Below, one piece after another: positions 8,835 to 61,723 of a stretch of 64,000 bases of DNA; the stretch's first letter is position 1, and each line of letters begins with the position of its first letter. This stretch comes from Comamonas sp. (GTDB lineage Bacteria > Pseudomonadota > Gammaproteobacteria > Burkholderiales > Burkholderiaceae_C). A model generated the notes under the pieces. The model was not told the origin of the DNA, searched no databases, and was given only the letters and a program-made list of their open reading frames with translations. Location: positions 1 to 64,000 of the forward strand of contig JAJPEQ010000003.1 of NCBI GenBank assembly GCA_021166775.1. The letters run 5' to 3'. Both the position numbers and the translations under genes were made by a program.

Positions 8835-10157
8835 TCAGCCGCGCACCTCGCCCTCGCCCAGCACCACCCACTTGAGCGAGGTCAGGCCCTCGATGCCCAC
8901 GGGCCCGCGCGCGTGGAACTTGTCGGTGCTGATGCCGATTTCCGCGCCCAGCCCATACTCGAAGCCGTCGGCAAAGCGCGTGCTGGCGTTGACCATCACG
9001 CTGGCGGAATCGACCTCGCGCAGGAAGCGCTGCGCGTGCACGTGATCGGTCGTGAGAATGGCATCGGTGTGGTGGCTGCCGTAGCGGTTGATGTGGGAAA
9101 TCGCCTCATCCAGCCCCGCGACCACCTTCACGCTGATGATGGGCGCGAGGTATTCCTCGGACCAGTCGGACTCTTGCGCGGCGCGCAGCAATTCTTTTGT
9201 ATTGATAGCTGATTGCGCTTGTCCATCAAGGGGTTGAACCTGGTTTTCCTCAAGAATTTTCAAGGATTCGGCATCGCAGCGCATCTGCACGCCCTTGGCG
9301 GCAAACACCTGCGCAATGCGCGGCAGAAACTGCGGCGCCACGCCGCGCGCCACCAGCAGGCTCTCGGTGGCGTTGCACGGGCTGTATTTCTGCGTCTTGG
9401 CGTTGTCCACCACCTTGAGCGCCAGCTCGATGTCGCAGGGCTCATCGACGTAACTGTGGCAGTTGCCGTCCAGGTGCTTGATGACGGGCACCTTCGCCTC
9501 GGCGCTCACGCGCTCGATCAGGCCCCTGCCGCCGCGCGGAATCACCAGATCCACATACTCGGGCATCGCGATCAGCCGCCCCACGGCCGCGCGGTCCGTC
9601 GTCTGCACCAGCTGCACGCCGTGCTCGGGCAGGCCCGCCTCGCGCAGCGCCTGCGTGACCAGTCGGGCCAGCGCCAGGTTGGAGGCGATCGCCTCCGAGC
9701 CGCCGCGCAAAATCGCCGCGTTGCCGCTCTTGATCGACAGGCTCGCCGCCTCGATCGTCACGTTCGGGCGGCTCTCGTAGATCATGCAGAACACGCCGAT
9801 GGGCACGCGCATCTGCCCGACGCGGATGCCGCTGGGCTGCTGGCGCATGCCCAGCACCTCGCCGATGATGTCGGGCATGGCGGCCAGCTGCTCGCAGCCG
9901 AGCGCACAGGTCTCGATCACTTGGGGCGTGAGACGCAGGCGATCGACCATGGGCGCGGCCAGACCCGCCTGCACAGCCTGTGCCAGGTCGCGCGCATTGG
10001 CCTCCTGCAGCGCCGCCACGCTCTCGCGCAGCCGCCGCGCAAGCGCCCGCAGAGCTTTGTTTTTGATAGCCGCTGGCGCACGCGCCATCAGCGCTGAGGC
10101 CACTTTGGCCTGAAGGCCCAGCGACTCGGTGTATTCGGCGATGTTCAGCGCATTCAT
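8835..10157 (-). CDS. proA: Glutamate-5-semialdehyde dehydrogenase (gamma-glutamyl phosphate reductase)
   Basis: ProA reduces gamma-glutamyl phosphate to glutamate semialdehyde with NADPH, the second step of proline synthesis. The catalytic cysteine is Cys261 in [10 protein letters not shown], and [13 protein letters not shown] (357-369) and [10 protein letters not shown] (389-398) are standard aldehyde-dehydrogenase-fold motifs. The protein has 440 residues against about 417 in E. coli. The extra length falls at about 297-326, where a dispersed short repeat is read in frame as part of the protein. A second copy-like stretch underlies residues 17-38. The reading frame stays open and the active-site motifs are intact, so the enzyme is probably functional. 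proB is not in the window. Confidence 0.93.
9191..9260 (+). repeat. Dispersed short repeat, copy 1 (inside proA)
   Basis: AT-richer element starting TTGATAGCTGATTGCGCTTG, followed by a degenerate tail ending TTTTCCTCAAGAATTTT. It shares the core ATAGCTG-NNN-GCGCTTG with other copies in this window. It lies on the strand opposite to proA and is translated in frame as the extra segment at about residues 297-326, where the codons CAA GCG CAA TCA GCT ATC give Q-A-Q-S-A-I. This is the best-supported insertion, because the protein is longer than its relatives at exactly this place. Confidence 0.65.
10057..10115 (+). repeat. Dispersed short repeat, copy 2 (5' part of proA)
   Basis: The stretch TTTTTGATAGCCGCTGGCGC, then CATCAGCGCTGAGGCC and TTTGGCCTGAAG, matches the core, the GCGCTGAGG middle and the CTGAA end of the repeat family. 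It encodes residues 17-38 of ProA, read as GCG CCA GCG GCT ATC AAA (A-P-A-A-I-K), the same frame and strand as copy 1. No length difference from relatives marks an insertion here, so chance similarity or replacement of native codons cannot be excluded. Confidence 0.45.
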
Positions 10158-10224
10158 GGGGCGGATTCTGACGCAATCGGGCCCGTCCCACGCTCACGCG
10201 GTCCGCACTCTGGCGCGGCTGCCC

Positions 10225-11055
10225 TCAGGCCGCCAGGCCAAAGCGCTGGCGCAGCCCGGCCAGCAGCGCCTCTTCGCCCAGCTCCTGGCGCAGGCGCATC
10301 ACCTGCAGCGCATCGGGTCCCACCACGTAGCGCACCTGCGCGCTGCCATCCGTGGCGGCGCCAAGCAGGGCCTGCGCCAGCGCCTCGGGCGAAGAGGCGC
10401 TGCCGCCGCTCTCGCGGTTGGCCGAAAACGTCGCCTGCACCTTGGCGATCGACGCGGCATAGGGCCCGCCGTCGCCCTCCCAGGTGCGCGCCAGCGAGCG
10501 GCCCGAAAAATCGGTATTGACCGCCCCCGGCGCGAACACCTTCACGCGGATACCCAGCGGCGCCAGCTCATGGCTCAGCGATTCGGAAAAACCCACCACC
10601 GCGAACTTGGACGCGGCGTACAGCGAATACAGCGGCATCGCCACCAGCCCCGTGAGCGAGGCCACGTTGATGATCACGCCGCTGCCCTGCGCGCGCATGC
10701 CGGGCAGCACCGCGCGCGTCACGGCGAACACGCCCTGCACATTGGTGGCGAACTGGCGCTCGATCATCTCGGGCGTCGCCGTCTCGAACGGGCCGAACAG
10801 GCCGTAGCCCGCGTTGTTGATCAGCACGTCGATGCGGCCGAAGCGCCCCAGCGCCTGCGCCACCGCCGCGTTCACCGAGGCCGCGTCGGTCACATCGAGC
10901 GCGAACGCCTGCACCTGGCCCGCCCCTTGCTCGAAGTGCGCCTTGGCCGGGTCGCGCAGCGTCGCCGCCACGTTCCAGCCCTGATCGGCGAACGCGCGCA
11001 CCGTCGCCGCGCCTATGCCCGAGGAACACCCGGTGATCAATACCGTCGAAGCCAT
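10225..11055 (-). CDS. SDR-family oxidoreductase
   Basis: This 276-residue short-chain dehydrogenase/reductase is of the classical type. The NAD(P)-binding motif TGCSSGIG is at 8-15, the structural NNAG at 80-83, and the catalytic triad is Ser133, Tyr146 and Lys150 (YAASK). An Arg in ATLRDP after the second strand favours NADP(H). It belongs to the large 'SDR with FAPGAVNTDF' subgroup whose substrates are mostly unassigned; nothing in the neighbourhood fixes its role. It ends 67 bp upstream of proA on the same strand and starts with an ATG at 11055. Confidence 0.88.
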   Translation of the reverse strand: MASTVLITGCSSGIGAATVRAFADQGWNVAATLRDPAKAHFEQGAGQVQAFALDVTDAASVNAAVAQALGRFGRIDVLINNAGYGLFGPFETATPEMIERQFATNVQGVFAVTRAVLPGMRAQGSGVIINVASLTGLVAMPLYSLYAASKFAVVGFSESLSHELAPLGIRVKVFAPGAVNTDFSGRSLARTWEGDGGPYAASIAKVQATFSANRESGGSASSPEALAQALLGAATDGSAQVRYVVGPDALQVMRLRQELGEEALLAGLRQRFGLAA

Positions 11056-11121
11056 GGCCGCACCCGCCTTCCAAAGTGTTTCACGATACCCCTCGACCCG
11101 ATAGGGGGATGCAAGATTTCG

Positions 11122-11682
11122 TTACAACCGCGCATCGAAGTGGCCGAGCACGCGATACGTGGGTGGCTGCACCGCCAGGTCCGACCACAGCAGCTCCAGC
11201 GCCTGCACCCGCCAGCGCACCGGCGCCGCCAGCCGCGCCAGCCGCACGCCTTCGGCCCGGCGCAGCGCCGTCAGGTGCGGCTTGAACGGCCGCGCCTCGG
11301 GTGTCAGACCCGCGACGCGCGCGATCTCGTCGGTGGCCGCGTGCAGCGCCGTCAGCGCCTCGGACGGCGCCGCGCGCAGCACCGCGATGGTGCCGTGCGG
11401 CGCGTGCCACAGTTCGGCGCGCGTGAGCTGCAGCTCGAACGGCGCAAAGCGCAGCCCCGCCAGTGCCTCAAGCCACACCGCCTCCTGCGCCGCCTCCACC
11501 GCGTTGAAGAACTGCAGCGTGACATGCATGCGCTCGGGCGCGGGCTTCAGGCGCTCGGGCAGTCCGCCCCACTGCTGGCGCACCAACGCGATCGCGGCGC
11601 GCGCGGCGGCGTCGGGCATCAGCGCGGTGAAGAGACGCCGGGGGGCGGAGGTGGTTGCGGGGACGGCAGCAGGCAAGGTCAT
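11122..11682 (-). CDS. thpR: RNA 2',3'-cyclic phosphodiesterase (2H superfamily)
   Basis: The 186-residue protein belongs to the LigT/ThpR branch of the 2H phosphoesterases, which opens 2',3'-cyclic phosphates on RNA ends. Both catalytic motifs are present: HVT at 53-55 and HLT at 136-138. The frame stays open upstream for another 98 codons, but those codons lie over a pseudogene on the other strand. The ATG at 11682 gives the normal family length, so I start there. Its upstream side is the edge of the accessory island, and its promoter must lie within or beside the relic methyltransferase. Confidence 0.9.
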   Translation of the reverse strand: MTLPAAVPATTSAPRRLFTALMPDAAARAAIALVRQQWGGLPERLKPAPERMHVTLQFFNAVEAAQEAVWLEALAGLRFAPFELQLTRAELWHAPHGTIAVLRAAPSEALTALHAATDEIARVAGLTPEARPFKPHLTALRRAEGVRLARLAAPVRWRVQALELLWSDLAVQPPTYRVLGHFDARL

Positions 11683-11693
11683 CGGTTCAGCAT

Positions 11694-12494
11694 ACGCCCC
11701 GGGCCCGATGACATCCCCTGGTTCAACGGCGGACTGTTCGCGCACATCGACCTGCCGCGCCTGCAGATCACCGACGTGACCGAGCTGCGCAACGCCGCGC
11801 GGCTGAACTGGAGCGCGATCGACGTCAGCATCTTCGGCATCCTGCATAGCCGCTTTCACGAGCTCTGGTCGCTGCGCATGGGCACCTCGCTCGAAGAGCG
11901 GCCACGCTACACCCCCACCACCTGCTTTGAAACTTTCCCCTTCCCCGCCGGCCTCACGCCCTTTGATACCGTCCACCAGCGCACCGAGCCACTCGCCAGC
12001 GGCGCGCTGATTCCGGCGGGGCTGGATGAAACATACGATTCAAATCAGCGTCCAGCACAAGCGAGACGGGCGCTATAAGCTATCAAATCAGAAGCCCCGC
12101 CCCCCCACCCCCCACCCAACACACACTGCGCTCGCACGCCAGCGCCATCGCCGAGGCCGCGCACCGGCTCGACACGCCGCGCCGCCAGTGGCTGAACCCG
12201 CCCGAATGGACGCGCGTCGTGCCCGAGGTGGTGCCGCTGGGCCTGGCGCGCTCGCCCTACCCCGACCGCAGCGAGCCGCGCCTCGATCTGTCCGAGCACG
12301 ACGCCAAGGCGCTGCAAAAGCGCACCCTGACCAACCTCTACAACCAGCGCCCTGCCTGGCTGGCGCAGGCACACGCGCAGCTTGACGCGGCCGTGGCCGC
12401 CGCTTAAGGCTGGGCCGACTACACCCTCGCGATGACCGACGACGAAATCCTGCGGCGGCGGCTGGCGCTGAACCTGGCGCGCGCGGCGGATTGA
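11694..12494 (+). pseudogene. Relic of an MmeI-like DNA methyltransferase / restriction-modification protein
   Basis: Three pieces of one family can be read. At 11706-11850 is DIPWFNGGLFAHIDLPRLQ up to SAIDVSIFGILHSR, the part just before the catalytic domain. It is joined directly to the C-terminal segment FHELWSLRMGTSLEERPRYTPTTCFETFPFP (to about 12030), so the middle with the methyltransferase NPPY-type motif is missing. After a repeat insertion with an in-frame TAA (12076-12078) and a frame change near a C-rich run, the tail WLNPPEWTRVVPEVVPLG to KRTLTNLYNQRPAWLAQ continues at 12123-12404. A second stop TAA (12405) interrupts a final readable GWADYTLAMTDDEILRRRLALNLARAAD, ending at 12494. 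The gene cannot make an active enzyme. Confidence 0.85.
12037..12091 (-). repeat. Dispersed short repeat, copy 3 (inside the methyltransferase relic)
   Basis: On the minus strand it reads TTTGATAGCTTATAGCGCCC and ends GGACGCTGATTTGAATC, matching the core of the family. It splits the methyltransferase relic between LDETYDSNQ and the TLRSHAS tail. In the frame of the dead gene the core reads GCG CTA TAA GCT ATC AAA, the same frame as the copies in living genes, but here it contains a stop. As no selection on protein sequence is expected here, this is good evidence that the element itself is mobile or was once mobile. Confidence 0.65.
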
Positions 12495-12500
12495 GTTGCA

Positions 12501-13037
12501 TCAAGGCAGGCGCTTCCCCGCCACGCCGATCAACTGCCACTGCCGTGCGATGTCTTGCGGGGATTCGAGGGCCATCAAGCCGTCAAACAGCGCGCAGAGT
12601 TCGTTCCTGCTCGCCAGTGCGGCCTCGGAAAAAAGAGCGTCGAAGCGATGCGGACCGCCTCTGACGGCTTCTTCGGGTGGCCACATGGAGCGGGTGGCCT
12701 CGAAGTTGCGCCGCGCCTGGGTCAGGCTCACTCCGTAGTTGGGGCCGCTCCCCCATACTTCGTCGGCATCGGGGTCGTCCTGACCTTCGCACTCCCATTG
12801 GCACACCCCGCACATGTCATGACCCTGCCGGTTGCCCAGGGTTGGATAACCGCAGACAGGGCAGGCCCAATGACCCTCGTTGTGCGTTTTCCGGTGACGC
12901 TCGAAGAACATGCGCCGGATGGCAAAAGCGCTGCCTTCCCATTCCGCCGGGGGAGTCCAGTGTTCAAGATGGCCCAGCGTTTCCCACCAACTCTTGAATG
13001 GATAGGCGTTGCGGTCTTCAGGTGGGGTGATGCTCAT
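12501..13037 (-). CDS. Cysteine-rich CPCC family protein
   Basis: The 178-residue protein has the CPCC-domain pattern: Cys59-Pro-Val-Cys62, then Cys76-Gly-Val-Cys79, then GQDDPDADEVWGSGPN (85-100) and SLTQARRNF (104-112), as in the family named after CPCC. The cysteine pairs probably bind a metal such as zinc. An extra N-terminal 55 residues (Trp- and Pro-rich) and a C-terminal helical tail flank the domain. The biochemical function of the family is unknown to me; members often occur in accessory regions and near toxin loci. The gene faces the methyltransferase relic tail to tail, with only 6 bp between the two ends. Confidence 0.8.
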   Translation of the reverse strand: MSITPPEDRNAYPFKSWWETLGHLEHWTPPAEWEGSAFAIRRMFFERHRKTHNEGHWACPVCGYPTLGNRQGHDMCGVCQWECEGQDDPDADEVWGSGPNYGVSLTQARRNFEATRSMWPPEEAVRGGPHRFDALFSEAALASRNELCALFDGLMALESPQDIARQWQLIGVAGKRLP

Positions 13038-13097
13038 GGAATGTTGCCAGTGGCTGCGCCGTGCGATTGTTCAGGCCAGTCTTCCACCATCAGAAGG

Positions 13098-13300
13098 CGG
13101 CCGTCATCGGTATGCAACAACAGGGTATTTCATCGCTTGCCTCTCTCACTACCAGCCTGCCTGCCTCTGGATACTGCCCAGCGGATTTGACGGCGCGCCA
13201 CCTTGCGAGGATCGGACGGCAGGCGGGGGACTTGAACCCCATCGACATCCGCAGTTGCGGCGCCTCGTCTCCAGGGAGCGAATCTACCTGCCGAAGCCCG
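13098..13300 (-). pseudogene. Probable relic of a hicA-hicB toxin-antitoxin pair
   Basis: On the minus strand an ATG at 13133 begins MKYPVV, and after a one-base frame change HTDDG follows; together they match the N-terminus typical of HicB antitoxins. It breaks off after about 12 residues. Just upstream, a frame ends GSIQRQAGW and a TAG stop (13151-13149), resembling the HicA C-terminus (SI-x-KQAG), with 15 bp and a GAGAGG ribosome-site-like sequence before the hicB ATG. That is the normal hicA-hicB spacing. The rest of hicA cannot be followed confidently. Neither product can be functional. The match is by eye and short. Confidence 0.42.
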
Positions 13301-13790
13301 AGGGTAAGGCGCAGCCACGATCGAAGTCAACGACCGCCCGGTGCTCCTTCCCCACCCAGCTCTACAACCAGCTCCCCGCCTGACTCGCGCAGGCGCAGCT
13401 TGGCGGCGCGCACTTGGTCACGCAGCCAGGCGCTCGTGCAAGGTCGTGAGGTACTGGCGCAAGGCGGTGTCGTCGACGTCGGCGGTGATCATGGCGCGGG
13501 CCTTCCAAAATCGACCGCGCACCGGGCGCGAAAGCGGCTGGCGACCGGGCCTGTAGCCGCCTGGAAAATGACCCCCGCCCCAGTTGGCTGCGGGAGCTTT
13601 ATCCCCGGTGCGCCTTATTTTCTCTTGGTTGGCGGCATGTCTCAGACTCCCTCCCCTTCCGGGGGAAGAGAGCAGGGCGCAGGGTGTTCATGCCCTTGCG
13701 ATCGCGGTTGATCAGGTTCCAGAGAATCCGGCCGTTTTCCATCTGCCGGTCCACCAGCAGAACGCCCTGTTTGCTGTCAACCTCTTGCAA
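13301..13790 (+). other. Decayed intergenic stretch without a confident gene
   Basis: No intact gene is supported between the hicAB relic and the gene at 13802. On the minus strand a short frame begins MITADVDDTALRQYL (ATG at 13492) and seems to continue after a frame change as LRDQVRAAKLRLRESGG to a stop at 13327; it may be a broken small gene of unknown family. Another open minus frame at 13790-13599 contains VLLVDRQMENGRILWNL, unrecognised. A hairpin-forming CCCTCCCCTTCCGGGGGAAG lies at about 13650-13670, a type of GC-rich interspersed palindrome. The GGGGGACTTGAACCCC at about 13226-13241 is not part of a tRNA. Confidence 0.4.
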
Positions 13791-13801
13791 AGGAGCCGCC
13801 C

Positions 13802-14071
13802 ATGTCCAGAGCCGTCCCCGCCACCCCCGAGCAGATCGGCGACGGCGAAGACCATCTGGTGAATGTGCACGACCCTGAGGTGCCCGCGGGCGTGCGCGAC
13901 AAAGTGCTCGGGCTGATGCAGCCCGGCGATCAGCTCTGGCGCTGCCCGCGACGGGACGCGCCGCGCGGACTGCTGGGCGTGTTGGGAATGGGCACGCGCG
14001 ACGTGGTCATCGAATGGTGGTTGGTGGATGCCCAGGGCGAACTGATCGAGGCGTTCTGGGAAGAGGCGTAA
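13802..14071 (+). CDS. Hypothetical protein, 89 residues
   Basis: I do not recognise this family. The small acidic soluble protein begins MSRAVPATPEQIGDG and ends with a Trp-rich segment DVVIEWWLVDAQGELIEAFWEEA. It has a good ribosome-binding site (AAAGGAG, eight bases before the ATG) and codon use like real genes of the window, which argues that it is expressed. There is no signal peptide or membrane helix. It is the only plus-strand gene of the accessory island that looks intact, and it converges on thiE. Confidence 0.6.
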   Translation: MSRAVPATPEQIGDGEDHLVNVHDPEVPAGVRDKVLGLMQPGDQLWRCPRRDAPRGLLGVLGMGTRDVVIEWWLVDAQGELIEAFWEEA

Positions 14072-14875: not shown

Positions 14876-15694
14876 TCACGCGAGCTTCAGGTGCGCCGCC
14901 AGCGCCTCGGGGGCCAATGCGTAGAGCTGGTCGATCAGCGCCACGGCAAAGCTGCCGGGGCCGTGGCATTGTTTGGCCGCCGCGTCCGCCGCCACGGTGA
15001 GCAGCGCGGTGGCCGCCGCCGCCGCCAGCAGCGCATCGTCGGTGACGGCCGCGAAACCGGCCATCAGCGCGCCCAGCGCGCAGCCCGCGCCGGTCACGCG
15101 CGTAAGCAAGGGATGGCCGTTGGCGATGCGCACCAGCCGCTCGCCGTCGGTGAGCTGATCGACCGCGCCGCTCACGGCCACCACCATGCGGTGCTTGCGC
15201 GCCAGGCGCACGGCGGCCTCGACGGCCTGGTCGGCCCCGGCCGTGGATTCCACGCCCTTGCCGCCCTGCCCGCCGGTGAGCGCGAGGATTTCCGAGCCGT
15301 TGCCGCGCACGATGGTGGGCGAGTGCCCGGCCAGCAGCTCCAGCGCGATCGAGGTGCGCCAGGGCACGGCGCCCGCGGCCACCGGATCGAGCACCCAGGG
15401 CACGTGGGCGTTTTCTGCCCCGCGCACGGCGACGCGCATGGCCTGCGCGGTTTCCTGATACGGCGTGCCCAGGTTGACGAGCACGCCCGCGCTGATCGCG
15501 GCAAAGCCCTCGGCCTCCTGCGCGTTGTCCACCATCGCCGGAGCGCAGCCCGCCGCCAGCAGCACGTTGGCGGTGAAGTTGGCGACGACGATGTTGGTCA
15601 GGCACTGCACCAGCGGCGCGCGCTCGCGCAGGGCGTGCAGCGCCTCGGCAAAGCGCTGCGGCGCCAGGGGATTGAGATTCGGGGAATGGGTCAT
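14876..15694 (-). CDS. thiM: Hydroxyethylthiazole kinase
   Basis: ThiM phosphorylates the thiazole moiety (THZ) with ATP so that it can be salvaged into thiamine. The 272-residue ribokinase-fold protein has the substrate loop CLTNIVVANFTANVLLAAG (31-49), NLGTP (74-78), WVLDPVAAG (100-108), GNGSEI (131-136) and the catalytic GAGCALGAL with Cys205. It is preceded immediately by a TPP riboswitch and followed by thiE, so the pair is a thiamine-repressed salvage operon. No thiD or thiC is adjacent. Confidence 0.95.
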   Translation of the reverse strand: MTHSPNLNPLAPQRFAEALHALRERAPLVQCLTNIVVANFTANVLLAAGCAPAMVDNAQEAEGFAAISAGVLVNLGTPYQETAQAMRVAVRGAENAHVPWVLDPVAAGAVPWRTSIALELLAGHSPTIVRGNGSEILALTGGQGGKGVESTAGADQAVEAAVRLARKHRMVVAVSGAVDQLTDGERLVRIANGHPLLTRVTGAGCALGALMAGFAAVTDDALLAAAAATALLTVAADAAAKQCHGPGSFAVALIDQLYALAPEALAAHLKLA

Positions 15695-15699
15695 AAGGA

Positions 15700-15778
15700 C
15701 GTTCCTACGCCAGGATGATCTGGATCAGGTTCAACGGGTGTGCTCTCAGCACGGAAAGGCTCCGTGCACCCCGCGTCA
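15700..15778 (-). promoter_or_regulatory. TPP riboswitch controlling thiM-thiE
   Basis: On the minus strand the conserved thi-box elements are all present: CGGGGTGC, then CTGAGAGCACACCCG, then TTGAACCTGATCCAGATCAT and GGCGTAGG. This is the thiamine-pyrophosphate aptamer. It ends only about 6 bp before the thiM ATG and the AGGA of GTAGGAACG is the only visible ribosome-binding site, so control is most likely by hiding that site when TPP binds. The 5' edge touches the stop codon of the upstream sirtuin gene (15776). Confidence 0.95.
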
Positions 15779-16639
15779 AAGGGGGAATCTTAGCGCGGCA
15801 GCGCCCGTCAACACGTGCGCCAGTTCGCTCAACGCCGTGCCCACGGGCTGCTCGACCTTGAGCGCCAGCGATGCGTCCGCGCGCGTGCAGCCCAGGTTGA
15901 CGGCGGCCACGGGCTTGCCCGCCTGCACCGCCGCGCGCACGAAGCGCAAGCCCGAATACACCATGAGCGATGAGCCGGCCACGAGCAGCGCGTCCGCGCG
16001 CTCCAGCGCCTGCAGCACGGTCTGCACGCGCTCGCGCGGCACGTTTTCGCCGAAGAACACCACGTCGGGCTTGAGCACGCCCGCACATGCGGGGCAAGCG
16101 GGCACCTCGAAACCCGAAAAATCCAGCTCCTGCACCAACGCATCCCCGTCGGGCGCGGTGGCCACGTCCTGCGGCAGATGCGCTCGCAGCCAGTCGTCGT
16201 TGGCCGCGCGCAGCATCTGCTGCATGCGCTGGCGCGGCCATCGCGCCTGGCAGCTCAGGCAGCGCACGCCATCGAGCCGGCCATGCAGATCGATCACGCG
16301 CCGGCTGCCCGCCGCGTCGTGCAGGCCATCGACGTTTTGCGTGACCAGAAGCCGCACGTGCCCCGCCGCTTCCAGTTGCGCCAGCGCCGCATGCGCCGGG
16401 CCGGGGCGGCTCGCTGCGATGCGCGGCCAGCCGATCATGCTGCGCACCCAGTAGCGCCGACGCGCCGCCACATCGCCGACGAAGGCCTGGAAATTCATGG
16501 GCGCGGGGCGCTTCCATCGGCCCTGCAGATCGCGGTAATCGGGGATGCCGCTTTCCGTGCTGCAGCCTGCGCCGGTGAGCACGAGCAGCCGCGGGTGGCG
16601 GCGGATGAATTCGGCCAGGGCGGGGATGTCGGCGGGCAT
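15776..16639 (-). CDS. SIR2-family NAD-dependent protein deacetylase
   Basis: The 287-residue sirtuin removes acyl groups from lysines using NAD+. It has GAGCSTESGIPDYR (23-36), TQNVDGLHDAAG (100-111) with the catalytic His at HG119-120, a zinc site of Cys127, Cys130, Cys182 and Cys185, and FFGENVP (195-201). An in-frame ATG seven codons earlier (16660) is also possible; neither has a clear ribosome site, and I prefer the one that starts MPADIPALAEFI as in relatives. Its stop codon lies at the very 5' edge of the TPP riboswitch, so read-through from this gene would enter the aptamer. Confidence 0.9.
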   Translation of the reverse strand: MPADIPALAEFIRRHPRLLVLTGAGCSTESGIPDYRDLQGRWKRPAPMNFQAFVGDVAARRRYWVRSMIGWPRIAASRPGPAHAALAQLEAAGHVRLLVTQNVDGLHDAAGSRRVIDLHGRLDGVRCLSCQARWPRQRMQQMLRAANDDWLRAHLPQDVATAPDGDALVQELDFSGFEVPACPACAGVLKPDVVFFGENVPRERVQTVLQALERADALLVAGSSLMVYSGLRFVRAAVQAGKPVAAVNLGCTRADASLALKVEQPVGTALSELAHVLTGAAALRFPL

Positions 16640-20989: not shown

Positions 20990-21066
20990 GGAAGCTGGCA
21001 AAGGGAGAAGCCGCGCCCACGGGCACGGAAATCACAAGCCGGTCATTCTAGTAGCGCGGCCAGTTC

Positions 21067-21142
21067 ATCATCAAAAAAGGAGCTGACTGCGCTTGATTAT
21101 CAATGAATTCAAATAGATTGATATCTGATATTCAATACAGGT
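21067..21142 (+). repeat. Dispersed short repeat, copy 4 (leuS upstream gap)
   Basis: The gap between exbD and leuS is markedly AT-rich and begins AAAAAAGGAGCTGACTGCGC followed by TTGATTATCAATGAATTC and ending TTCAATACAG. It matches the core (GAGCTG-NNN-GCGCTTGAT) of the other copies. It is the only clearly intergenic copy, placed where the leuS promoter is expected, so it could influence leuS transcription or end transcription of exbD. Confidence 0.55.
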
Positions 21143-21157
21143 AAGCGTTGGCAGCTC

Positions 21158-29188: not shown

Positions 29189-29686
29189 ATGAATCCCATC
29201 CAGATCGGCGTGGTCATGGGTTCTTCCAGCGACTGGGAGACCCTGCAGCACGCCGTCGCCATCCTGCAGCACTTCGCCGTGGCGCACGAGGCCCGCGTGG
29301 TCTCCGCGCACCGCATGCCCGACGAGATGTTCGCCTACGCCGAGCAGGCGGCGGCGCGCGGCCTCAAGGCCATCATCGCGGGCGCCGGCGGTGCGGCGCA
29401 TCTGCCGGGCATGCTCGCGGCCAAGACCACGGTGCCGGTGCTGGGCGTGCCTGTCGCCAGCCGCCACCTGCAGGGCGTCGATTCGCTGTACTCCATCGTG
29501 CAGATGCCCAAGGGCGTGCCGGTGGCCACCTTCGCCATCGGACCGGCCGGGGCGGCCAATGCGGCGCTGTTCGCCGTGGCACTGCTGGCGGGCGAAGCAC
29601 CGGCGCTGCGCGAGCGGCTCCAGGCCTACCGGCGCGAGCAGACCGCGGCCGCGCAGGCCATGCGGCTGCCACCGGCCGCGCCATGA
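29189..29686 (+). CDS. purE: N5-carboxyaminoimidazole ribonucleotide mutase
   Basis: PurE moves the carboxyl group of N5-CAIR to give CAIR. The 165-residue protein has the substrate loop [14 protein letters not shown] (10-23), SAHRMPDEM (45-53) and [11 protein letters not shown] (about 70-80), all typical of class I PurE. Its stop codon overlaps the purK start (ATGA), which indicates coupled translation. Confidence 0.97.
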
Positions 29687-30846
29687 CGCAAGGCGTGATC
29701 CTGCCGGGCGCCACGCTCGGCGTGCTCGGTGGCGGGCAGCTCGGGCGCATGTTCGTGCACGCGGCGCAGACCCTGGGCTACTTCACCGCCGTGCTCGACC
29801 CCGATGCCGACAGTCCCGCCGGGCGCGTGAGCCACCACCACATCCGCGCCGATTACGAAGACACGCAGGGCCTGGACGAACTCGCCCGGCTGTGTGCCGC
29901 CGTCACCACCGAATTCGAGAACGTGCCCGCGAGCGCGCTGCGCACGCTCGCGCAGCGCATCGCCGTCTCGCCCGACGCCCATGCGGTGGCCGTGGCGCAG
30001 CACCGCGCACGCGAGAAGGCGCATTTCGTGCACTGTGGTGTGCCGGTGGCGCCGCATGCGGTGATCGAATCGCCCGCGCAGCTCGCGGCCGTCGATGCGG
30101 CGCTGCTGCCCGGCATCCTCAAAACCGCCACGCTGGGCTACGACGGCAAGGGCCAGGCGCGCGTGCAGACGCCCGCCGAGCTCGCCGCCGCCTGGGAACA
30201 ACTCGCACGCGTGCCCTGCGTGCTCGAAAAACGCCTGCCACTGTCGCTGGAATGCTCGGTGGTTCTGGCGCGCGGGCGTGATGGCACCGTGGTGAGCCTG
30301 CCGGTGCAGCGCAACCTGCACCGCAACGGTATTCTCGCGGTGACCGAGGTTTTTGATGGAAATCTGCCTCAAACCATTACCCAACAAGCGCTGGCAGCTG
30401 CCGAATCAGTAGCGCGAGGACTGGCTTACGTCGGTGTGCTCTGCGTTGAATTCTTCGTGCTGCAGGACGGCTCGCTCGTGGTCAACGAGATCGCGCCGCG
30501 CCCGCACAACAGCGGGCACTGGAGCATCGACGGCTGCGACGTCTCGCAGTTCGAGCTGCAGGTGCGCGCCATGACCGGCCTGCCGCTCGCGGCGCCGCGC
30601 CAGCACAGCCCGGCCGTCATGCTCAACCTGCTGGGCGACCTGTGGTTCGCGCACTCGGCCAGCGCCGCCACGCCGCCGTGGGACGCGGTGCTGCGCCTGC
30701 CTGGCGCCCACCTGCACCTGTACGGCAAGCGCGAGGCGCGGCGCGGGCGCAAGATGGGGCATCTCACCCTCACCGGCGCCACGCCCGAGGCGGCGCGCGC
30801 CACGGCGTTGCAAGCCGCACGCATCCTCGGCATCGACGCCTTCTGA
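29683..30846 (+). CDS. purK: N5-carboxyaminoimidazole ribonucleotide synthase
   Basis: This 387-residue ATP-grasp enzyme carboxylates AIR with bicarbonate. It shows [12 protein letters not shown] (12-23), TEFENVP (74-80), [13 protein letters not shown] (146-158), VEFFVL (261-266) and [13 protein letters not shown] (274-286). Around residues 222-245 ([17 protein letters not shown]) the DNA matches the dispersed repeat family. The alignment around it looks continuous, so the element either replaced native codons or resembles them by chance. The gene overlaps purE by four bases and is followed by tsaC after 3 bp. Confidence 0.96.
30350..30415 (-). repeat. Dispersed short repeat, copy 5 (inside purK)
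   Basis: Read on the minus strand the core is GGCAGCTGCCAGCGCTTGTT followed by a TTTGAGGCAGATT tail. The purK strand reads it as CAA GCG CTG GCA GCT GCC (Q-A-L-A-A-A), the same frame as the copies in proA. The match to the family core is good, but no length change in PurK marks an insertion. Confidence 0.45.
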
Positions 30847-48734: not shown

Positions 48735-49862
48735 ATGCAGCGTCCCCTCCTGCCTCTCATCGCACTGATCGCGTCGCTCTGGCTGACGGGTGGCCACGCC
48801 GCCGACACCCCCGCCAAGGCGCAACCGGCGCTCACGGTCACCGTCACCCTCCCCGTGCGCGGCCTGCTGGCCGAGCACCTGACAGCCAACGGCAACATCG
48901 CCGCATGGCAAGAAGCGAGCGTGGGCGCGGAAATCGGCGGCCTGCGCATCGCACAGGTCCTGGCCAACGTGGGCGACACCGTGCGCAAGGGTCAGGTGCT
49001 GGCGCGCTTCGCCACCGACCTCGTCCAGAGCGACGTGGCGCAGGCGCGTGCCGCGCTCCAGCAGGCGCAAGCGGCCGTGGCCGAAGCGCAGGCCAATGCG
49101 GCGCGCGCCCAGGCGCTCGCCGGCAGCGGCGCGATGAGCGCACAGCAGATTCAGCAGTACGCCACAGCCGAGCAGAGCGCCAGCGCCAGCGTGGCGGCGG
49201 CGCAGGCCGCCCTGGGCACCCAGCTGCTGCGCCTGAAGCACACCGAGCTGCTCGCCCCCGACGACGGCATCATCTCCGCGCGCACGGCCACCGTGGGAGC
49301 GGTGGTGAACGTCGGCGCCGAACTGTTTCGCATGGTGCGCCAGGGGCGCCTGGAGTGGCGCGCGGAGGTGAACGCCTCCGAGCTGTCGCGCCTGCGCGTG
49401 GGCACCCGGGCCCTGATCTCCACCACGAGCGGCGCGCAGGTGCAAGGCCGGGTGCGCGTGCTCGGCCCGACGGTGGACCTGGCCACCCGCAACGCGCTGG
49501 TCTACGTGGACCTGCCCAGCCAACCCGATCTGCGCGCCGGTCTGTACGCCAGCGGCCAGTTCCTGCTTGGCGACAAGCAGGCGTTGTCGTTGCCGCTGTC
49601 GAGCGTGGTGGTGCGTGACGGCTTTCCCAGCGTGTTCGAGCTGCAGGGGGGTGACCACGTGGTGCTGCGCCGCGTGCGCACCGGCCAGCGTGTGGGCGAC
49701 CGCATCGAAATCACCCGGGGCCTGGCCGAGAACGCCCGCGTCGTCGAGCGCGGCGGCACCTTTCTGAACGATGGCGACCTGGTGCACGTGGTCACGGATT
49801 CTGAACAAAAACAGGATCAAAGCAGCGCCAGCCAAGCGCAGACAGCTACGAAAACCAAGTAA
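48735..49862 (+). CDS. RND efflux periplasmic adaptor (membrane fusion protein)
   Basis: The 375-residue protein has a cleavable signal (LTGGHAA-D), a biotinyl-lipoyl-like domain (EIGGLRIAQVLANVGDTVRKGQVLARF, about 68-94), an Ala/Gln-rich coiled-coil hairpin (about 100-165) and the beta-barrel domain. It links an RND pump to an outer-membrane channel. No TolC-type gene is adjacent. Its last 20 codons (SEQKQDQSSASQAQTATKTK) derive from a dispersed repeat copy and are probably an unstructured tail. The stop lies 2 bp before the pump gene. Confidence 0.92.
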   Translation: MQRPLLPLIALIASLWLTGGHAADTPAKAQPALTVTVTLPVRGLLAEHLTANGNIAAWQEASVGAEIGGLRIAQVLANVGDTVRKGQVLARFATDLVQSDVAQARAALQQAQAAVAEAQANAARAQALAGSGAMSAQQIQQYATAEQSASASVAAAQAALGTQLLRLKHTELLAPDDGIISARTATVGAVVNVGAELFRMVRQGRLEWRAEVNASELSRLRVGTRALISTTSGAQVQGRVRVLGPTVDLATRNALVYVDLPSQPDLRAGLYASGQFLLGDKQALSLPLSSVVVRDGFPSVFELQGGDHVVLRRVRTGQRVGDRIEITRGLAENARVVERGGTFLNDGDLVHVVTDSEQKQDQSSASQAQTATKTK

Positions 49863-49863: not shown

Positions 49864-49864
49864 C

Positions 49865-56552: not shown

Positions 56553-56573
56553 CGGCCGGGCACCCCGCTGGCC

Positions 56574-57134
56574 ATGGCTCTCAAATCCACCATCTTCAAG
56601 GCCGAGCTGCAGCTCGCGGACATCGACCACGGCTGCTACACCGATCTTTCGCTGACGCTGGCGCGCCACCCGAGCGAAACCGACGAACGCATGATGATGC
56701 GCCTGGCGGCACTGGCGCTGAACGCGCACCAGGTGCAGGACCTGTGCGGTGGCGACGCCCGCATCGGCTTTGGCGCGGGGCTCTCCAGCCCCGAGGAGCC
56801 GGACGTGCTGCTGCAGGACTACACTGGGCGCACGCGGCTGTGGATCGAAGTCGGCCAGCCCGAGGAGAGGGCGTTGTCCAAGGCCTGCTCCAAGGCGGAC
56901 GCGGTGGTGCTCTATGCCTACGGCCCGGCGGCCGAAGTTTGGTGGCACGGCGCGCAGGACAAGCTCGCGCGCCTGGACAAGCTCGGCGTCTGGCGCATTG
57001 CGGCCGATCAGGCCCGGGCACTGGCGCCGCTGGCCGAGCGCAGCATGCAGCTGCAGGCGACCGTGCAGGAAGGGCAGCTCACGGTCTCGGGCAGCGCCGC
57101 CAGCGTGACGCTGGAACCTGTGCGCTGGAAGTGA
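56574..57134 (+). CDS. yaeQ: YaeQ family protein
   Basis: The 186-residue protein matches YaeQ, a compact PD-(D/E)xK nuclease-fold protein of unclear function. Features are the N-terminal MALKSTIFKAELQLADIDHGCY, HPSETDERMMMRLAALAL (32-49), EPDVLLQDYTGRTRLWIEVGQPE (about 74-96), which carries the nuclease-like D...E-x pattern, and a C-terminal beta-rich part. It follows purB by 21 bp and is probably transcribed with it. Confidence 0.92.
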   Translation: MALKSTIFKAELQLADIDHGCYTDLSLTLARHPSETDERMMMRLAALALNAHQVQDLCGGDARIGFGAGLSSPEEPDVLLQDYTGRTRLWIEVGQPEERALSKACSKADAVVLYAYGPAAEVWWHGAQDKLARLDKLGVWRIAADQARALAPLAERSMQLQATVQEGQLTVSGSAASVTLEPVRWK

Positions 57135-57200
57135 ACGGCTCCCGGGGGTACTCCGACCGCGCACGTTCACCCGCCAACGCCCCATGGGGCATCCAAGCCA

Positions 57201-58430
57201 CTATCTCAACGATTCGTTCTGCGGCCACTTCCAGAAGGCGAACGCACCCATGAGCAGCAGGGCGCTCATCGTCAGCAGCGCGGCGGTGAAAGGCTCCACG
57301 CCCCAGCGCGGAGCCAGGCTGGCCGCGACGCCGCTCGCCGATTGCATCAGCGAGACGCCCAGGAACATCGCCATGGTGAGCAGCGACAGCGCCCGCCCCC
57401 GCACGGCGGCGGGGTAGCTGGCGTGCACGTAGCCATACTGCAGGACCATGTAGCCCGACAGCAGGCCGAAACAGATCACCAGTAGCACATCGACCCAGGC
57501 CACGCGCACGAGCGCCATGGAGGCGATCAGCAGCGCCACCCCCCCGGCCATCAGGACGAGCCAGCGCCGCAGCCCGCGCCCGGCGGGCGCGATGCGGCCG
57601 AAGAGCGCCGGGCTGCCGATGCTCGCGAGCGTCATCGCCAGTGCGACGTTGCCGCTTTGCACCAGCGAGAAATCGAACCGGTCCACCAGCAGCGGCCCGA
57701 GCCACAGTCCCCGGATGGTGATGTAGGTGGCATAGGCGACGAGCGCGTAGGCGACCAGGCCGCGCGTGTACGGCAGCCTGAAAAGCGCCAGCAGCCCGGT
57801 GAGCGCGGCCATGGGCGAAGGCCGGCGCGTCGGCGCGCCGGGCGGCGGCGCGGGCTCGTGCACGCGCCAGAAGATCCACAACCAGGTCACGAGCGCCACG
57901 ACCGCGAGCACGCCAAAGCCCCAGCGCCACGAGGTCCGCGCGATCAGCCAGGCCAGCGGCGTTGCCGTGAGCAGCATGCCGCTGTAGCCGATGCTCATCA
58001 CCGTGCCCGAGACCGGCGTGAAGCGATCGGGCGCGAAATGGCGGCTGATGAACACGGTGCACACGAGAAAGGCCGGCGCGCAGCCCGTGCCGATCAAAAG
58101 CTGCCCCCACATCAGTGCGCCGTAGCTGCCAGCTTGCGACGACAGCGCCGCGCCCGCGATGGTCAGCGGAAACGCCAGCAAAATGGTGCGGCGCACGCCC
58201 CAGACATCCAGCGAAATGCCCATCGCCACCTGCATCACGCCGAAGGCGAAGTGGTAGGCGGCGGACCAGTTGCCCAGCTCACGAGCGCTCAGTTGCAGGT
58301 CTTGCGTGAGCGGCGGCCCCATGATGGCCGCGAGCGAGCGGAACGCCTGGCTCAGGACAAAGGCGCACGAAAGCGCCAGCAGCATGCCCCAGGCGGCGCG
58401 CGAGGACAGCGGCGCGGCAGGCGGGCTCAT
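57201..58430 (-). CDS. MFS transporter
   Basis: The 409-residue protein has twelve predicted membrane helices and belongs to the major facilitator superfamily. The loop between helices 2 and 3 reads DVWGVRRTILL, the usual G-x-x-x-D-R-x-G-R-[RK] region in reduced form. The substrate cannot be inferred. The frame continues upstream through the zinc-ribbon gene; the ATG at 58430 gives a natural N-terminus and overlaps the stop codon of that gene by four bases, implying coupled translation. Confidence 0.87.
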   Translation of the reverse strand: MSPPAAPLSSRAAWGMLLALSCAFVLSQAFRSLAAIMGPPLTQDLQLSARELGNWSAAYHFAFGVMQVAMGISLDVWGVRRTILLAFPLTIAGAALSSQAGSYGALMWGQLLIGTGCAPAFLVCTVFISRHFAPDRFTPVSGTVMSIGYSGMLLTATPLAWLIARTSWRWGFGVLAVVALVTWLWIFWRVHEPAPPPGAPTRRPSPMAALTGLLALFRLPYTRGLVAYALVAYATYITIRGLWLGPLLVDRFDFSLVQSGNVALAMTLASIGSPALFGRIAPAGRGLRRWLVLMAGGVALLIASMALVRVAWVDVLLVICFGLLSGYMVLQYGYVHASYPAAVRGRALSLLTMAMFLGVSLMQSASGVAASLAPRWGVEPFTAALLTMSALLLMGAFAFWKWPQNESLR

Positions 58431-58732
58431 CGGGGCATCAGCGCGCCGCAGTTCCAGCACTGTTCGAAGCCTCCCTCCACCCTTTCGCCACAGGCGGGGC
58501 AGCACCAGCGCCGCTGCGGCAGGTGCTGCAATGCATCGAGCAAGGCGCGGGCGCGCTCCAGATGTTCCCCGTGCTCCAGCCAGATCTCGGGCAGGCATTC
58601 GCTGGGCGGGAGCTGCCCCGCGGCCGAGCTCAGGTACTGGCGCTGCACGGTGGCGCGCAGTCCTGCCTCGCAGAGCAGGTCGCACCAGACGGTGGCGATC
58701 GCGATGTTGGGAGCTTGGGTGAGGCGTTGCAC
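58427..58732 (-). CDS. DUF2007-like protein with C-terminal zinc ribbon
   Basis: The predicted 101-residue protein begins (GTG) QRLTQAPNIAIATVWCDLLCEAGL, a ferredoxin-like domain of the putative signal-transducing DUF2007 type. It ends in a zinc ribbon, WCCPACGE then FEQCWNCGALMPR. Function unknown. The GTG at 58732 gives the family N-terminus; an ATG at 58765 (MIAELRSTVLH) is an alternative. Its upstream gap is shared with the divergent manganese riboswitch and terC. Confidence 0.75.
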   Translation of the reverse strand: MQRLTQAPNIAIATVWCDLLCEAGLRATVQRQYLSSAAGQLPPSECLPEIWLEHGEHLERARALLDALQHLPQRRWCCPACGERVEGGFEQCWNCGALMPR

Positions 58733-58790
58733 GTGCAAAACCGTTGAACGGAGTTCAGCAATCATAGGCCGCTTGTGGTCTAATCCCATC

Positions 58791-58956
58791 CCTTCAAGGG
58801 GGAGTAGCTCCCCGCCGATGGGGTGCTCCTGCTCCCCACCGGCGACTGGCACGGTCGTCATCACGAAGCGCTGGCGCGCTTCCGGCCCGCCAGGCGCAGC
58901 CGGGCTGCGTCGAGCAAGACCCTTGAGCCCCGGGTTTCCCGTGCGCGGCTCAAGGT
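58791..58956 (+). promoter_or_regulatory. yybP-ykoY (Mn2+) riboswitch upstream of terC
   Basis: The aptamer hallmarks are present: TTCAAGGGGGAGTAGC at the 5' side, GGCGACTGGCACGGTCGTCAT in the middle, and GAGCAAGACCCTTGAG at the 3' side. The outer stem forms between TCAAGGG and CCCTTGA. The 3' strand of that stem (CTTGAGCC, 58922-58929) can instead pair with GGCTCAAG (58947-58954), a mutually exclusive hairpin that looks like the expression switch. TerC-family proteins are standard targets of this riboswitch, which senses manganese. Confidence 0.92.
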
Positions 58957-59061
58957 GTCCCTGCCTGCAGAAATGGCGGCAACATCGCGAGTTGCTCCGG
59001 TTGCCCATAACCATCGGCCAGCCCGCGCATGCAGGGCTGGCGGGTACTCAGGACATCCACC

Positions 59062-59826
59062 ATGGATTTGGAATTTTTCCTGCACGCGCCTTTCTGGATT
59101 GCGCTCGGTCAGCTCATCATCATCGACATCCTGCTCGGCGGCGACAATGCGGTGGTGATCGCGCTCGCCTGCCACAAGCTGCCGCCCAAGCAGCGCACGC
59201 AGGGCATCGTCTGGGGCACGGCGGCGGCCATCGCGCTGCGCGTGGTGCTCATCGTCTTCGCGATGACGCTGCTCACGCTGCCGTTCCTCAAGCTCGTGGG
59301 CGCGCTGCTGCTGATCTGGATCGGCGTCAAGCTCATCGTGCCGCAGGAAGAAGGGCACGAGACCATCCAGAGCAGCGACAGGCTGATGACGGCCATCAAG
59401 ACCATCGTCGTGGCCGACGTGGTGATGAGCCTGGACAACGTGATCGCGATCGCCGCCGCGGCCAAGAACGCGGGGCAGTCGCACGAGCTGGTGCTGGTCA
59501 TCCTGGGCCTGCTGATCTCGGTGCCCATCATCGTCGGCGGCTCGCAGCTCGTGATGCGCATCATGGAGCGCTTCCCGGTGGTGATCGTGCTCGGCGGCAT
59601 GCTGCTGGGCTGGATCGCGGGCGGCATGCTGGTGACCGACCCGGTCTTCACCCACCCAGATCAGTGGCTGTGGGCGCCCAAGTTCGGCACGCTCGATGCC
59701 AATGGCATGGCGCAGGTGCACGGCGCGCTGTACTACGGTGCCCACCTGGCGGGCGCGCTGCTGGTGCTGGCCCTGGGCAAGTGGTTGCTGGCCCGCGGCA
59801 AGAAGGCAGCGGCGCACGCCTCGTGA
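59062..59826 (+). CDS. TerC-family membrane protein, manganese-riboswitch controlled
   Basis: The 254-residue protein has seven or more membrane helices with conserved acidic residues in LGGDNAVVIALAC (about 28-40) and VMSLDNVIAIAAAAKN (about 123-138), as in the TerC/Alx family. These proteins export or balance manganese in several bacteria. The ATG at 59062 has AGGA nine bases upstream and fits the family start MDLEFFLHAPFW. It lies directly downstream of the manganese riboswitch, which makes a role in Mn2+ efflux or metal loading of exported proteins likely. Confidence 0.92.
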   Translation: MDLEFFLHAPFWIALGQLIIIDILLGGDNAVVIALACHKLPPKQRTQGIVWGTAAAIALRVVLIVFAMTLLTLPFLKLVGALLLIWIGVKLIVPQEEGHETIQSSDRLMTAIKTIVVADVVMSLDNVIAIAAAAKNAGQSHELVLVILGLLISVPIIVGGSQLVMRIMERFPVVIVLGGMLLGWIAGGMLVTDPVFTHPDQWLWAPKFGTLDANGMAQVHGALYYGAHLAGALLVLALGKWLLARGKKAAAHAS

Positions 59827-59845
59827 GCGATGCTATGCTGACATA

Positions 59846-60202
59846 ATGCGCATCCTCTTCAAATGGGCCCTGCACGCGGTGGCGCTGCTGTGCGTGGCCT
59901 ACCTCTACAGCGGCGTCGAAGTGCACAGCTTTGGCGCTGCGCTGGGCGCGGCCTTCGTGATCGGCCTGCTCAACACCCTGCTGCGCCCGGTGCTCGTCAT
60001 CCTGACGCTGCCGGTGACCATCGTCACGATCGGGCTGTTCCTGTTTGTGATCAACGCGCTGATGTTCTGGGCCGCATCGGGTCTGCTGGGCGACGGCTTT
60101 CAGGTGCACGGCTTCGGCGCCGCGCTGATCGGCTCGGTGATCTATTCGGCGCTGGGATTACTGATCGAGGCGGCGCTCACGCGTCTGCTCATCCAGAAGT
60201 GA
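59846..60202 (+). CDS. Small membrane protein of the phage-holin-4-2-like family
   Basis: The 118-residue protein has four membrane helices and contains NTLLRPVLVILTLPVTIVTIGLFLFVINALMF, the hallmark of a widespread family often labelled 'phage holin family protein'. Despite the name it is a chromosomal housekeeping-like protein of unknown role; there are no phage genes here. It starts 20 bp after terC, and its 3' end overlaps the convergent protease gene by 45 bp. Confidence 0.82.
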   Translation: MRILFKWALHAVALLCVAYLYSGVEVHSFGAALGAAFVIGLLNTLLRPVLVILTLPVTIVTIGLFLFVINALMFWAASGLLGDGFQVHGFGAALIGSVIYSALGLLIEAALTRLLIQK

Positions 60203-61723
60203 TTTGACGGCGCGCAGGCGCGTGTCGATGATCGAGGCCTCGATGTAGTCCTGCGAGCTGGCGCTCTTGCGCGCCAGGTCCTGTCCCGCGCGAAAGCGGT
60301 CCACGGCCCCGGCGTAATCGTAGTGCGCCACCTGCGCCTCGGCCTCGGCGCGGATGGCACGCAACATCTGCCCGTCGGCGCGCCAGACCTGCGCCAGCGC
60401 CTGCCAGACAGCGCCGTCATGCGGGTGCAAAGTCACCCAGGTCTGCAGCGCTGCCGCCATGGGCGCGGCCTCGCCCGTGGCCAGCAGTGCCTGCGTGCGC
60501 GCCAACATTTCGGGGCGCGGCTCTTTTTGAGCGGCGGGCCCCAGCACCTGGAGCGCGCCCCGGGCATCGCCGGAGGCGAGCGCCAGCTCGGCGTCCATCA
60601 GGCGAGCCTGCCGCAGCGCGTCACCGTTGCCGCGCACATCGCCCTGCAAGGCCGTGAAGATCGCGCGCGCAACGGGGTATTCGTTCAGCTGCTCGGCGGC
60701 CAGCACGGCCTGCGTGCGCGCGCTGACGCGCGCGGACAGGGAAAGCTGCGACAGGCGCGCATCCTGCGCCTCGTTCACCCACTGGCGCCACAGCTCGATG
60801 CCGGGACGCATCAGCACGCGAGCGCGCCCGACCATCATGGCGTGCGCCAGGGGCTCGGGCGGCGCGGGCGGCAGGTCCTTGGGCAGGCGGCTGTGCATGT
60901 CGGCGATGCGCTGGCTCGTGAGCGGGTGGCTGCGCAGCCAGGGCCAGCTGCCGTTGTCGTTGAGGCGGTTGGCCGTCTGCAGCTTGTCGAACATCTGCAC
61001 GAAGCCCTGCGGCGCAAAACCCGCGGGCTGCATCAGCGAAAAGCCCACGCGATCGGCCTCGCGCTCCATGCCGCGCGAGAAGTTGAGCTGCGTCTGCACC
61101 GCCAGCGCCTGTCCACCCACCATCAGCGCCTGACCCGCGGCGGGGCTGTGCGTGGTGGCGACGGCGCCCAGAATCATCGCGCCGATCATCAAGGGCGTGA
61201 TGCGCTTGTCCTGCGCGATCAGGCGCGAGATGTGCCGCTGCGTCACGTGGCTCAACTCGTGCGCCAGCACCGAGGCGAGCTGGTCGGGCGTATCCACCAC
61301 CGCCAGCAACCCCAGGTGCAGGCCAAAGAAGCCGCCGGGCATCGCGAAGGCGTTCACCGTGCGGTCGCGGATCAGCAGAATCTTCCAGGCGAAGCGCTCG
61401 TGCATCTCGGGCGTCATCTCGCCGCGCGCGAGCGAGGCCTTCACCAGCCGGTCGAGCACGCCCTGTGCGTACTGCTGCAGCACCGGATCCTCGACATAGC
61501 TCGGATCGCGGTAGATCTCGGCCACGATGCGCTCGCCGAAAGAGCGCTCGCTGGCCAGCGACATCTCGTCGCCATCGCCCAGCGCAGGCAGGCCCTGCGC
61601 GCGCGCCACCCCCGTGGTCAACACCACGAAAATCGCAAAAAACAGAGCTCCCAGCGCTTGCCAGTAATGGGCTGGAGCCGGTTTTTGCCTGAAATATCTC
61701 ACACTATGCCTCAAGGCTTGCAT
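60158..61723 (-). CDS. M48-family metalloprotease with TPR tail, BepA-like
   Basis: The 521-residue periplasmic protein has a signal peptide (cleavage after ARA-Q, about residue 42), the zinc site HELSH (about 155-159) with the downstream Glu in MEREADRVGF, and a C-terminal TPR-like region. This is the plan of BepA, which degrades or matures misassembled outer-membrane proteins such as LptD. The N-terminus is unusual: codons about 10-30 (RYFRQKPAPAHYWQALGALFF) come from a dispersed repeat copy, so the signal peptide itself is partly repeat-encoded. Confidence 0.88.
   Translation of the reverse strand: MQALRHSVRYFRQKPAPAHYWQALGALFFAIFVVLTTGVARAQGLPALGDGDEMSLASERSFGERIVAEIYRDPSYVEDPVLQQYAQGVLDRLVKASLARGEMTPEMHERFAWKILLIRDRTVNAFAMPGGFFGLHLGLLAVVDTPDQLASVLAHELSHVTQRHISRLIAQDKRITPLMIGAMILGAVATTHSPAAGQALMVGGQALAVQTQLNFSRGMEREADRVGFSLMQPAGFAPQGFVQMFDKLQTANRLNDNGSWPWLRSHPLTSQRIADMHSRLPKDLPPAPPEPLAHAMMVGRARVLMRPGIELWRQWVNEAQDARLSQLSLSARVSARTQAVLAAEQLNEYPVARAIFTALQGDVRGNGDALRQARLMDAELALASGDARGALQVLGPAAQKEPRPEMLARTQALLATGEAAPMAAALQTWVTLHPHDGAVWQALAQVWRADGQMLRAIRAEAEAQVAHYDYAGAVDRFRAGQDLARKSASSQDYIEASIIDTRLRAVKSLLDEQTRERRLDQ
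61631..61697 (+). repeat. Dispersed short repeat, copy 8 (signal-peptide region of the M48 protease)
   Basis: AAAAAACAGAGCTCCCAGCGCTTG followed by GGGCTGGAGCCGGTTTTTGCC and TGAAAT matches the core and both later blocks of the family, making it one of the most complete copies. The protease gene on the other strand reads CAA GCG CTG GGA GCT CTG (Q-A-L-G-A-L), the same frame as the other genic copies, just before the hydrophobic core of its signal peptide. Confidence 0.6.

Follow-up and report, generated by a model that had tools for sequence, protein, structure and literature searches.

An AT-rich repeat of about 60 bp from one Burkholderiales branch occurs inside genes in a favoured reading frame

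A 64,000-nucleotide stretch of a Comamonas sp. genome (GenBank assembly GCA_021166775.1, contig JAJPEQ010000003.1, positions 1 to 64,000; hereafter the window) carries copies of a dispersed, AT-rich repeat of about 60 bp (consensus CTAYTGATTTGATAGCTGCTNGCGCTTGNCNGGCAAGCGCTNGAGCCNNATTTNNTTCAAAA) that belongs to one branch of the Burkholderiales. Here, we show that copies of this repeat lying inside genes are read predominantly in one frame, that stop codons are insufficient to explain this preference, and that the proteins concerned are lengthened at some sites and unchanged or shortened at others. We regard as an even call a reading in which repeat DNA either enters coding DNA or takes the place of part of it, the net change in length varying from site to site, and tolerated peptides are then kept by selection. 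A narrower proposal is put forward tentatively: the repeat would spread not by transposing but by writing over short pieces of other DNA, about 60 bp of repeat sequence taking the place of native coding sequence in housekeeping genes whatever the resulting length, and a peptide-level filter would leave one frame.

Reading frame of the gene-borne copies

The original prediction, made from the letters of the window, held that gene-borne copies are read on the same strand and in the same frame, the core giving (Q)-A-x-x-A, and attributed this to a single stop-free frame, as in Rickettsia palindromic elements (RPE). Copies were scored with a profile that had 107 intergenic copies from the window's genus as its training set, and in the window all five of the gene-borne copies found by this profile are read in the predicted frame. 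For a wider sample, we took copies of at least 20 bits found in this genus and in four more (n = 367). A copy was called genic where the 180 bases on either side were coding on the same strand and in the same frame with no stop between, according to a home-made codon model; the rule is blind to the frame of the repeat itself. By this rule 53 of the 367 copies were genic and in frame (40 of 190 in the genus and 13 of 177 in the other four genera), and these reduce to 38 independent sites.

The predicted frame was used at 23 of the 38 sites, two forward frames at 7 and 5, and each of the remaining three once. Against equal use of six frames (1/6) the excess has p = 1.5e-9, which bears out the predicted bias in a larger sample, and it persists with a threshold of at least 30 bits (19 of 30 sites, p = 3.3e-6). 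That recount leaves out rfbB (22 bits), rarA (25), rsmB (28) and the second dnaE2 site (23), all part of the 38-site set, while flgK (16 bits) falls below the 20-bit threshold altogether. The bias is strong in the window's genus alone, with 19 of 27 sites, and this genus drives the statistics; sites in different genera may share history, and the purK site is common to the genus and the other-genera groups (hence 27 + 12 against 38).

The openness of each frame, meaning how often it is free of stops, was counted among the 314 copies that the rule did not call genic. The predicted frame is the one most often open (181 copies), followed by 154, 149, 140 and 136 for four others and 18 for the last, so the claim that it is the sole stop-free frame fails. 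For the frames used at 23, 7, 5, 1, 1 and 1 sites, openness predicts 8.8, 6.6, 0.9, 6.8, 7.3 and 7.5, respectively. The excess in the predicted frame remains (p = 9.7e-7), and stop-codon avoidance is thereby ruled out as the sole cause. Frame F2, open in only 18 of the 314 copies, is likewise overused (5 of 38 sites, p = 0.0018), and the frames F0, R1 and R2, which give peptides rich in Arg, Lys, Cys or Ser, together account for 3 of 38 sites (p = 2.6e-10). Both enriched frames translate the near-palindromic core roughly as A-L-x-x-Q-A, and this likeness points to a filter acting on the peptide. The frame bias is most simply read as selection that acts on the peptide once the event has happened. 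As the copies sit in housekeeping enzymes, they are very probably translated.

The copies and copy-like sites of the window are as follows, with the strand of the repeat given first.

9185..9259, + strand: proA copy (gene 8838-10157, - strand), 39.5 bits, predicted frame, about 14 codons longer than in genome G002 and most family members
~10044..10121, + strand: N-terminal proA site, weak, element-like and in place, 6.0 bits, no length change
12024..12100, - strand: decayed copy in a dead gene (+ strand, MmeI-like remnant), 14.0 bits, TAA in frame
21061..21156, no single strand: intergenic inverted double copy, + half at 21061-21103 with 13.6 bits, outward cores at 21081 (+) and 21142 (-)
30340..30413, - strand: in-place, full-length purK copy (gene 29683-30843, + strand), 47.7 bits, protein length unchanged
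49788..49854, - strand: copy near the C-terminus of a resistance-nodulation-division (RND) adaptor (gene 48735-49862, + strand), 21.8 bits, frame SASQAQTAT
61628..61699, + strand: copy near the N-terminus of an M48 peptidase (gene ~60161-61741, - strand, start codon unsettled), 41.6 bits, frame KPAPAHYWQALGAL

The profile finds six copies in the window, of which the five gene-borne ones were counted above. The best score among twenty block-shuffled windows was 11.3 bits, and nothing of at least 8 bits turned up in the reversed window; given this shuffle maximum, the dead-gene copy and the intergenic double copy are marginal, barely above noise. The predicted in-frame TAA in the dead gene was indeed found in the decayed copy. 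Two copies had been proposed in proA, and the first is clear; the second is weak in the window but scores 14.4 bits in G005, 17.9 in G008 and 21.7 in G007. The RND adaptor is of the HlyD family, and the M48 gene has a Peptidase_M48 match. The open reading frame at 10129-12078 (+), beside the decayed copy, matches Pfam MmeI_TRD at 28.3 bits and is what is left of a type IIG-like restriction-modification gene. The sole Rfam match in the window is a thiamine pyrophosphate (TPP) riboswitch at 15685-15783 (-), with 70.7 bits.

Protein length at the copies

Net protein length relative to a homologue was measured at 16 sites, mostly against distant PDB homologues; rfbB lies outside the 16. Length was unchanged or reduced at 7 of these sites (purK, rarA, imuB, coaBC, rsmB, selO and the proA N-terminus) and increased by 1 to 29 codons at the other 9. 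The RPE-like insertion of copies that had been predicted finds no support in purK and rarA, in which the protein has equal length over the segment in 31 of 32 and 32 of 32 rows, respectively. In both families the native peptide is already similar to the one encoded by the repeat, and for these two families only the segments thus count as ancestral, against the prediction. The N-terminal proA site has equal spans in relatives, imuB has the length of the GC-normal gene of G005, and the patches of rsmB and coaBC align without gaps to PDB homologues, while selO is shorter by 2 codons. Small gains were found in prmC (+1 codon, a partial value in which the alignment begins inside the patch), truB (+4), the first dnaE2 site (+4), aroE (+5), purL (+7), a geranyl-CoA carboxylase-like beta chain (+7) and tex (+10).

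The proA copy at 9185 adds about 14 codons. The segment is present in G000, G003, G005, G006, G007 and G008 and missing in G002 and in almost every one of 80 other family members; five of the 80 named loci carry a copy of at least 14 bits, a level that one reversed-sequence control also reached (14.0). The second dnaE2 site is longer by 21 to 29 codons than in G005 and G004, with the segment in four members of the genus and absent in two. The idea that the repeat is a source of new peptide segments therefore holds for proA and one dnaE2 site but not for purK and rarA, where nothing was added. The spread of net lengths makes a fixed-size transposon unlikely, unless trimming came after.

Other material occurs at the same ProA loop: G001 and G004 (loci L200 and L201) carry a different 17-residue filler, APAHPGNDIVKAYASMS, and three Rhodoferax-labelled loci (L140, L144 and L116) carry other extra segments, one of them repeat-like in its peptide. 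In a further case, two genes resembling branched-chain amino acid ATP-binding cassette (ABC) ATPases are seemingly fused in frame via a repeat copy (L323 and L317, from G151 and G088).

Copies as AT-rich codon patches

Genic copies form stretches of low GC content at third codon positions (GC3) within GC-rich genes, with a GC3 of 0.30 in the proA copy and 0.32 in the purK copy, compared with 0.86 in each gene. Across 828 genes of loci picked around copies, with orthologues counted separately, 30 of 35 AT-rich patches matched the repeat with at least 10 bits. The figure was 10 of 17 in stretches picked irrespective of copies (G031 7 of 14, G088 3 of 3, G227 none). The purK patch (GC3 0.24-0.52) occurs in 13 of 30 genomes, comprising 12 of 14 repeat-rich and 1 of 15 repeat-poor ones (G041), and the profile scores at least 14 bits in 8 of these 13; G043, with 39 matches, has no purK patch. 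For rarA, 13 of 14 rich genomes have a GC3 of at most 0.64 and 11 of 12 poor ones a GC3 of at least 0.77, though only 5 reach 14 bits.

Sequence and distribution of the repeat

By profile and alignment, the conserved stretch of the repeat is about 61 bp, with a mean GC of 0.486 (48.6%, n = 107 copies). The core AGCTNNNNGCGCTTG occurs 107 times in the whole genome and the reversed pattern 12 times. A consensus fold of 74 copies gives a weak hairpin of 6 pairs and -3.47 kcal/mol, with double changes at 1 pair, so that the term palindromic element overstates the structure; a longer inverted double form also exists. Non-genic copies lie between convergent genes in 77 cases and between divergent genes in 31.

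Of 250 sampled family genomes 46 hold the strict core, as do 29 of the 141 genera. A genome has up to 309 copies, counts range from none to hundreds between genera, and the variants of the repeat differ from genus to genus. With a more sensitive sequence model applied to 34 genomes (E<=1), eight genomes without the strict core (G010, G028, G030, G036, G047, G051, G055 and G058) gave from at least 77 to at least 139 diverged matches, and most of the others gave 1 to 11.

Proposed mechanism and points against it

The repeat may have spread through intergenic DNA of this branch and also into genes, where copying into coding DNA would exchange target stretches of differing length for repeat sequence. 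One conceivable route would be short single-stranded repeat DNA annealing via microhomology. Short-patch double illegitimate recombination is a mechanism on which we found no open-licence paper. Selection on the protein would then purge nearly all outcomes except in-frame, bland, helix-compatible peptides, and the survivors would be those in surface loops, with a gain in length, or those taking the place of a similar alanine-rich helix, with none.

Several observations weigh against this reading. The length gains at proA and dnaE2 are clear, insertion followed by trimming could yield like lengths, the comparators being mostly distant, and ParC provided no length value since its alignment stopped at the copy. 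A search for filled and empty sites in the fetched loci (13 rows) found no near-identical strains differing in one copy, and replacement was not witnessed; the only alignable pair, proA of G008 and G002, is 84-85% identical, too distant for reading the boundaries and, with them, any terminal inverted repeats or target-site duplication of the kind seen in miniature inverted-repeat transposable elements. Neither microhomology nor strand bias was demonstrated, and the orientation of copies is mixed along the G088 and G031 stretches. In the four other genera 5 of 12 sites use the predicted frame, a weak bias that has p = 0.036 with 1/6 as the expectation and is not significant when openness is allowed for (p = 0.12), and the gene calls come from our own codon model. 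Finally, G011 is repeat-rich yet has GC-normal purK and rarA, and G041 shows the reverse.

Alternative explanations

The whole repeat might insert and adjacent native codons might be deleted afterwards in compensation, old sites then mimicking replacement. Net lengths that run from +29 down to 0 would fit such a history, as would the larger gains where the compared genomes are all of one genus (dnaE2), but purK and rarA keep their exact length in at least 13 genera with the patch, which would need several independent exact restorations, and we consider this account unlikely.

Improbable, in our judgement, is a repeat that is a DNA-level signal, such as an uptake or protein-binding site, arising and being kept in place, with the frame bias coming from tolerated peptides. 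In-place sites at the same purK and rarA positions in many genera, inverted pairs, the excess at convergent gene ends and the genus-to-genus variants are all consistent with a signal, but the length of about 60 bp, the true gains at proA and dnaE2 and the wide range of strict-core counts across genera speak against it. DNA uptake sequences lie in place within genes with tolerated peptides and form inverted pairs at gene ends; the motif described here is much longer than those and adds length at some sites.

An origin of the repeat family from a piece of purK, whose own frame would have been kept on moving, is possible, and yet we give it a low chance. The profile built from intergenic copies matches purK at full length and in the frame of the gene itself (G000 47.7 bits, G031 49.4, G030 37.9 and G010 25.7), PurK shows no change in length, and GC-normal PurK of element-poor genera carries a similar peptide, for example YEGNLPDALAQRAVAATRAIAEGL in G060. 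However, rarA, the proA N-terminus, imuB, rsmB and coaBC are in place as well and cannot all be the source; they behave like purK, so overwriting would be needed anyway. The purK stretch is AT-rich solely where the genome is repeat-rich, which equally fits transfer from the repeat to purK; at the protein level the frame resembles GC-normal PurK only weakly (best E = 0.3, L401); and genomes that seem repeat-free by the strict core hold many diverged copies. In other families, the similarity of the PurK peptide to the repeat frame is loose.

Whole insertion of an RPE-like palindromic element whose sole stop-free frame is the one observed would agree with in-frame copies in housekeeping genes, with the gains at proA and dnaE2 and with the used frame being the most often open, but it has little to recommend it given the openness of four other frames, the sites without gain and the weak hairpin, and its stop-codon part is largely refuted.

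Comparison with known repeats

RPE, enterobacterial repetitive intergenic consensus (ERIC) and similar elements sit in frame inside proteins (PMC2229807, PMC3767692, PMC10969869, PMC2755013, PMC2759123), and RPE are 100-150 bp long with long stem-loops (PMC2229807, PMC3767692). In-frame repeats in proteins are thus an already known kind of phenomenon. Like RPE, our repeat is small and dispersed and occurs both between genes and in frame within many unrelated conserved proteins, at the 38 independent sites counted above; RPE are tolerated, and not known to be useful. Unlike RPE, it measures about 60 bp, well outside the 100-150 bp range, has a weak hairpin in place of a long stable stem-loop with terminal inverted repeats, and resides in Burkholderiales that are free-living. 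At 7 of the 16 sites measured it adds no length, whereas 9 show a gain. It is best read as resembling RPE in effect, and not in size, structure or mode. ERIC/RU-1, YPAL/RU-2, RU-3 and Correia are also described as short repeats whose open frame may be fused in frame to genes (PMC2229807, PMC2759123), but they are 103-168 bp long and resemble miniature inverted-repeat transposable elements; we set them apart by description, not by sequence.

Our searches, limited to open-licence papers, found no report of this repeat, its core 16-mers matched no text of such papers, and the sole related report concerns the betaproteobacterial repeat element BRE. These elements of Bordetella and Comamonadaceae are described as 75-91 bp long, with a mean GC of 69%, often tandem and in up to 29 copies, some wholly inside coding sequences (PMC3110155). 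The two share dispersal and the presence of some copies in coding sequence, but the stretch of about 61 bp, the GC of 0.486 and the up to 309 strict-core copies speak against identity with BRE as described. Tandem arrays were not seen for our repeat, though no systematic search for them was made.

The short unit, inverted pairs and excess at convergent gene ends are shared with repetitive extragenic palindromes and bacterial interspersed mosaic elements (REP/BIME), which are moved by REP-associated tyrosine transposases (RAYT). No Y1_Tnp (RAYT) gene was found in G001, G003, G005, G006, G007 or G008, and in G004 the match lay below the cut-off; RAYT is rejected as the mover, since the complete genomes G003 and G006 have no Y1_Tnp despite 46 and 66 strict-core copies. 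A single weak RAYT-like match (26.7 bits) lies in G000 at C7:4955-5269 (L112), and one weak match lies in G002.

Biological significance

In-frame protein repeats are best known from Rickettsia, whose small populations tolerate them. The carriers described here are free-living bacteria, and the hosts include GyrA/ParC-type topoisomerase, PurK, PurL, ProA, TruB, Tex and CoaBC. AT-rich codon patches offer a simple way to locate genic copies, and the frame bias amounts to a natural experiment in the tolerance of proteins for different 20-residue peptides. If replacement is true, repeats would remodel proteins at constant length, and searches for insertions based on length would miss such sites. 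If, further, the repeat spreads by overwriting, it would provide unrelated proteins with an ongoing supply of interchangeable helical patches rich in alanine and glutamine, which many genera share even at one and the same site.

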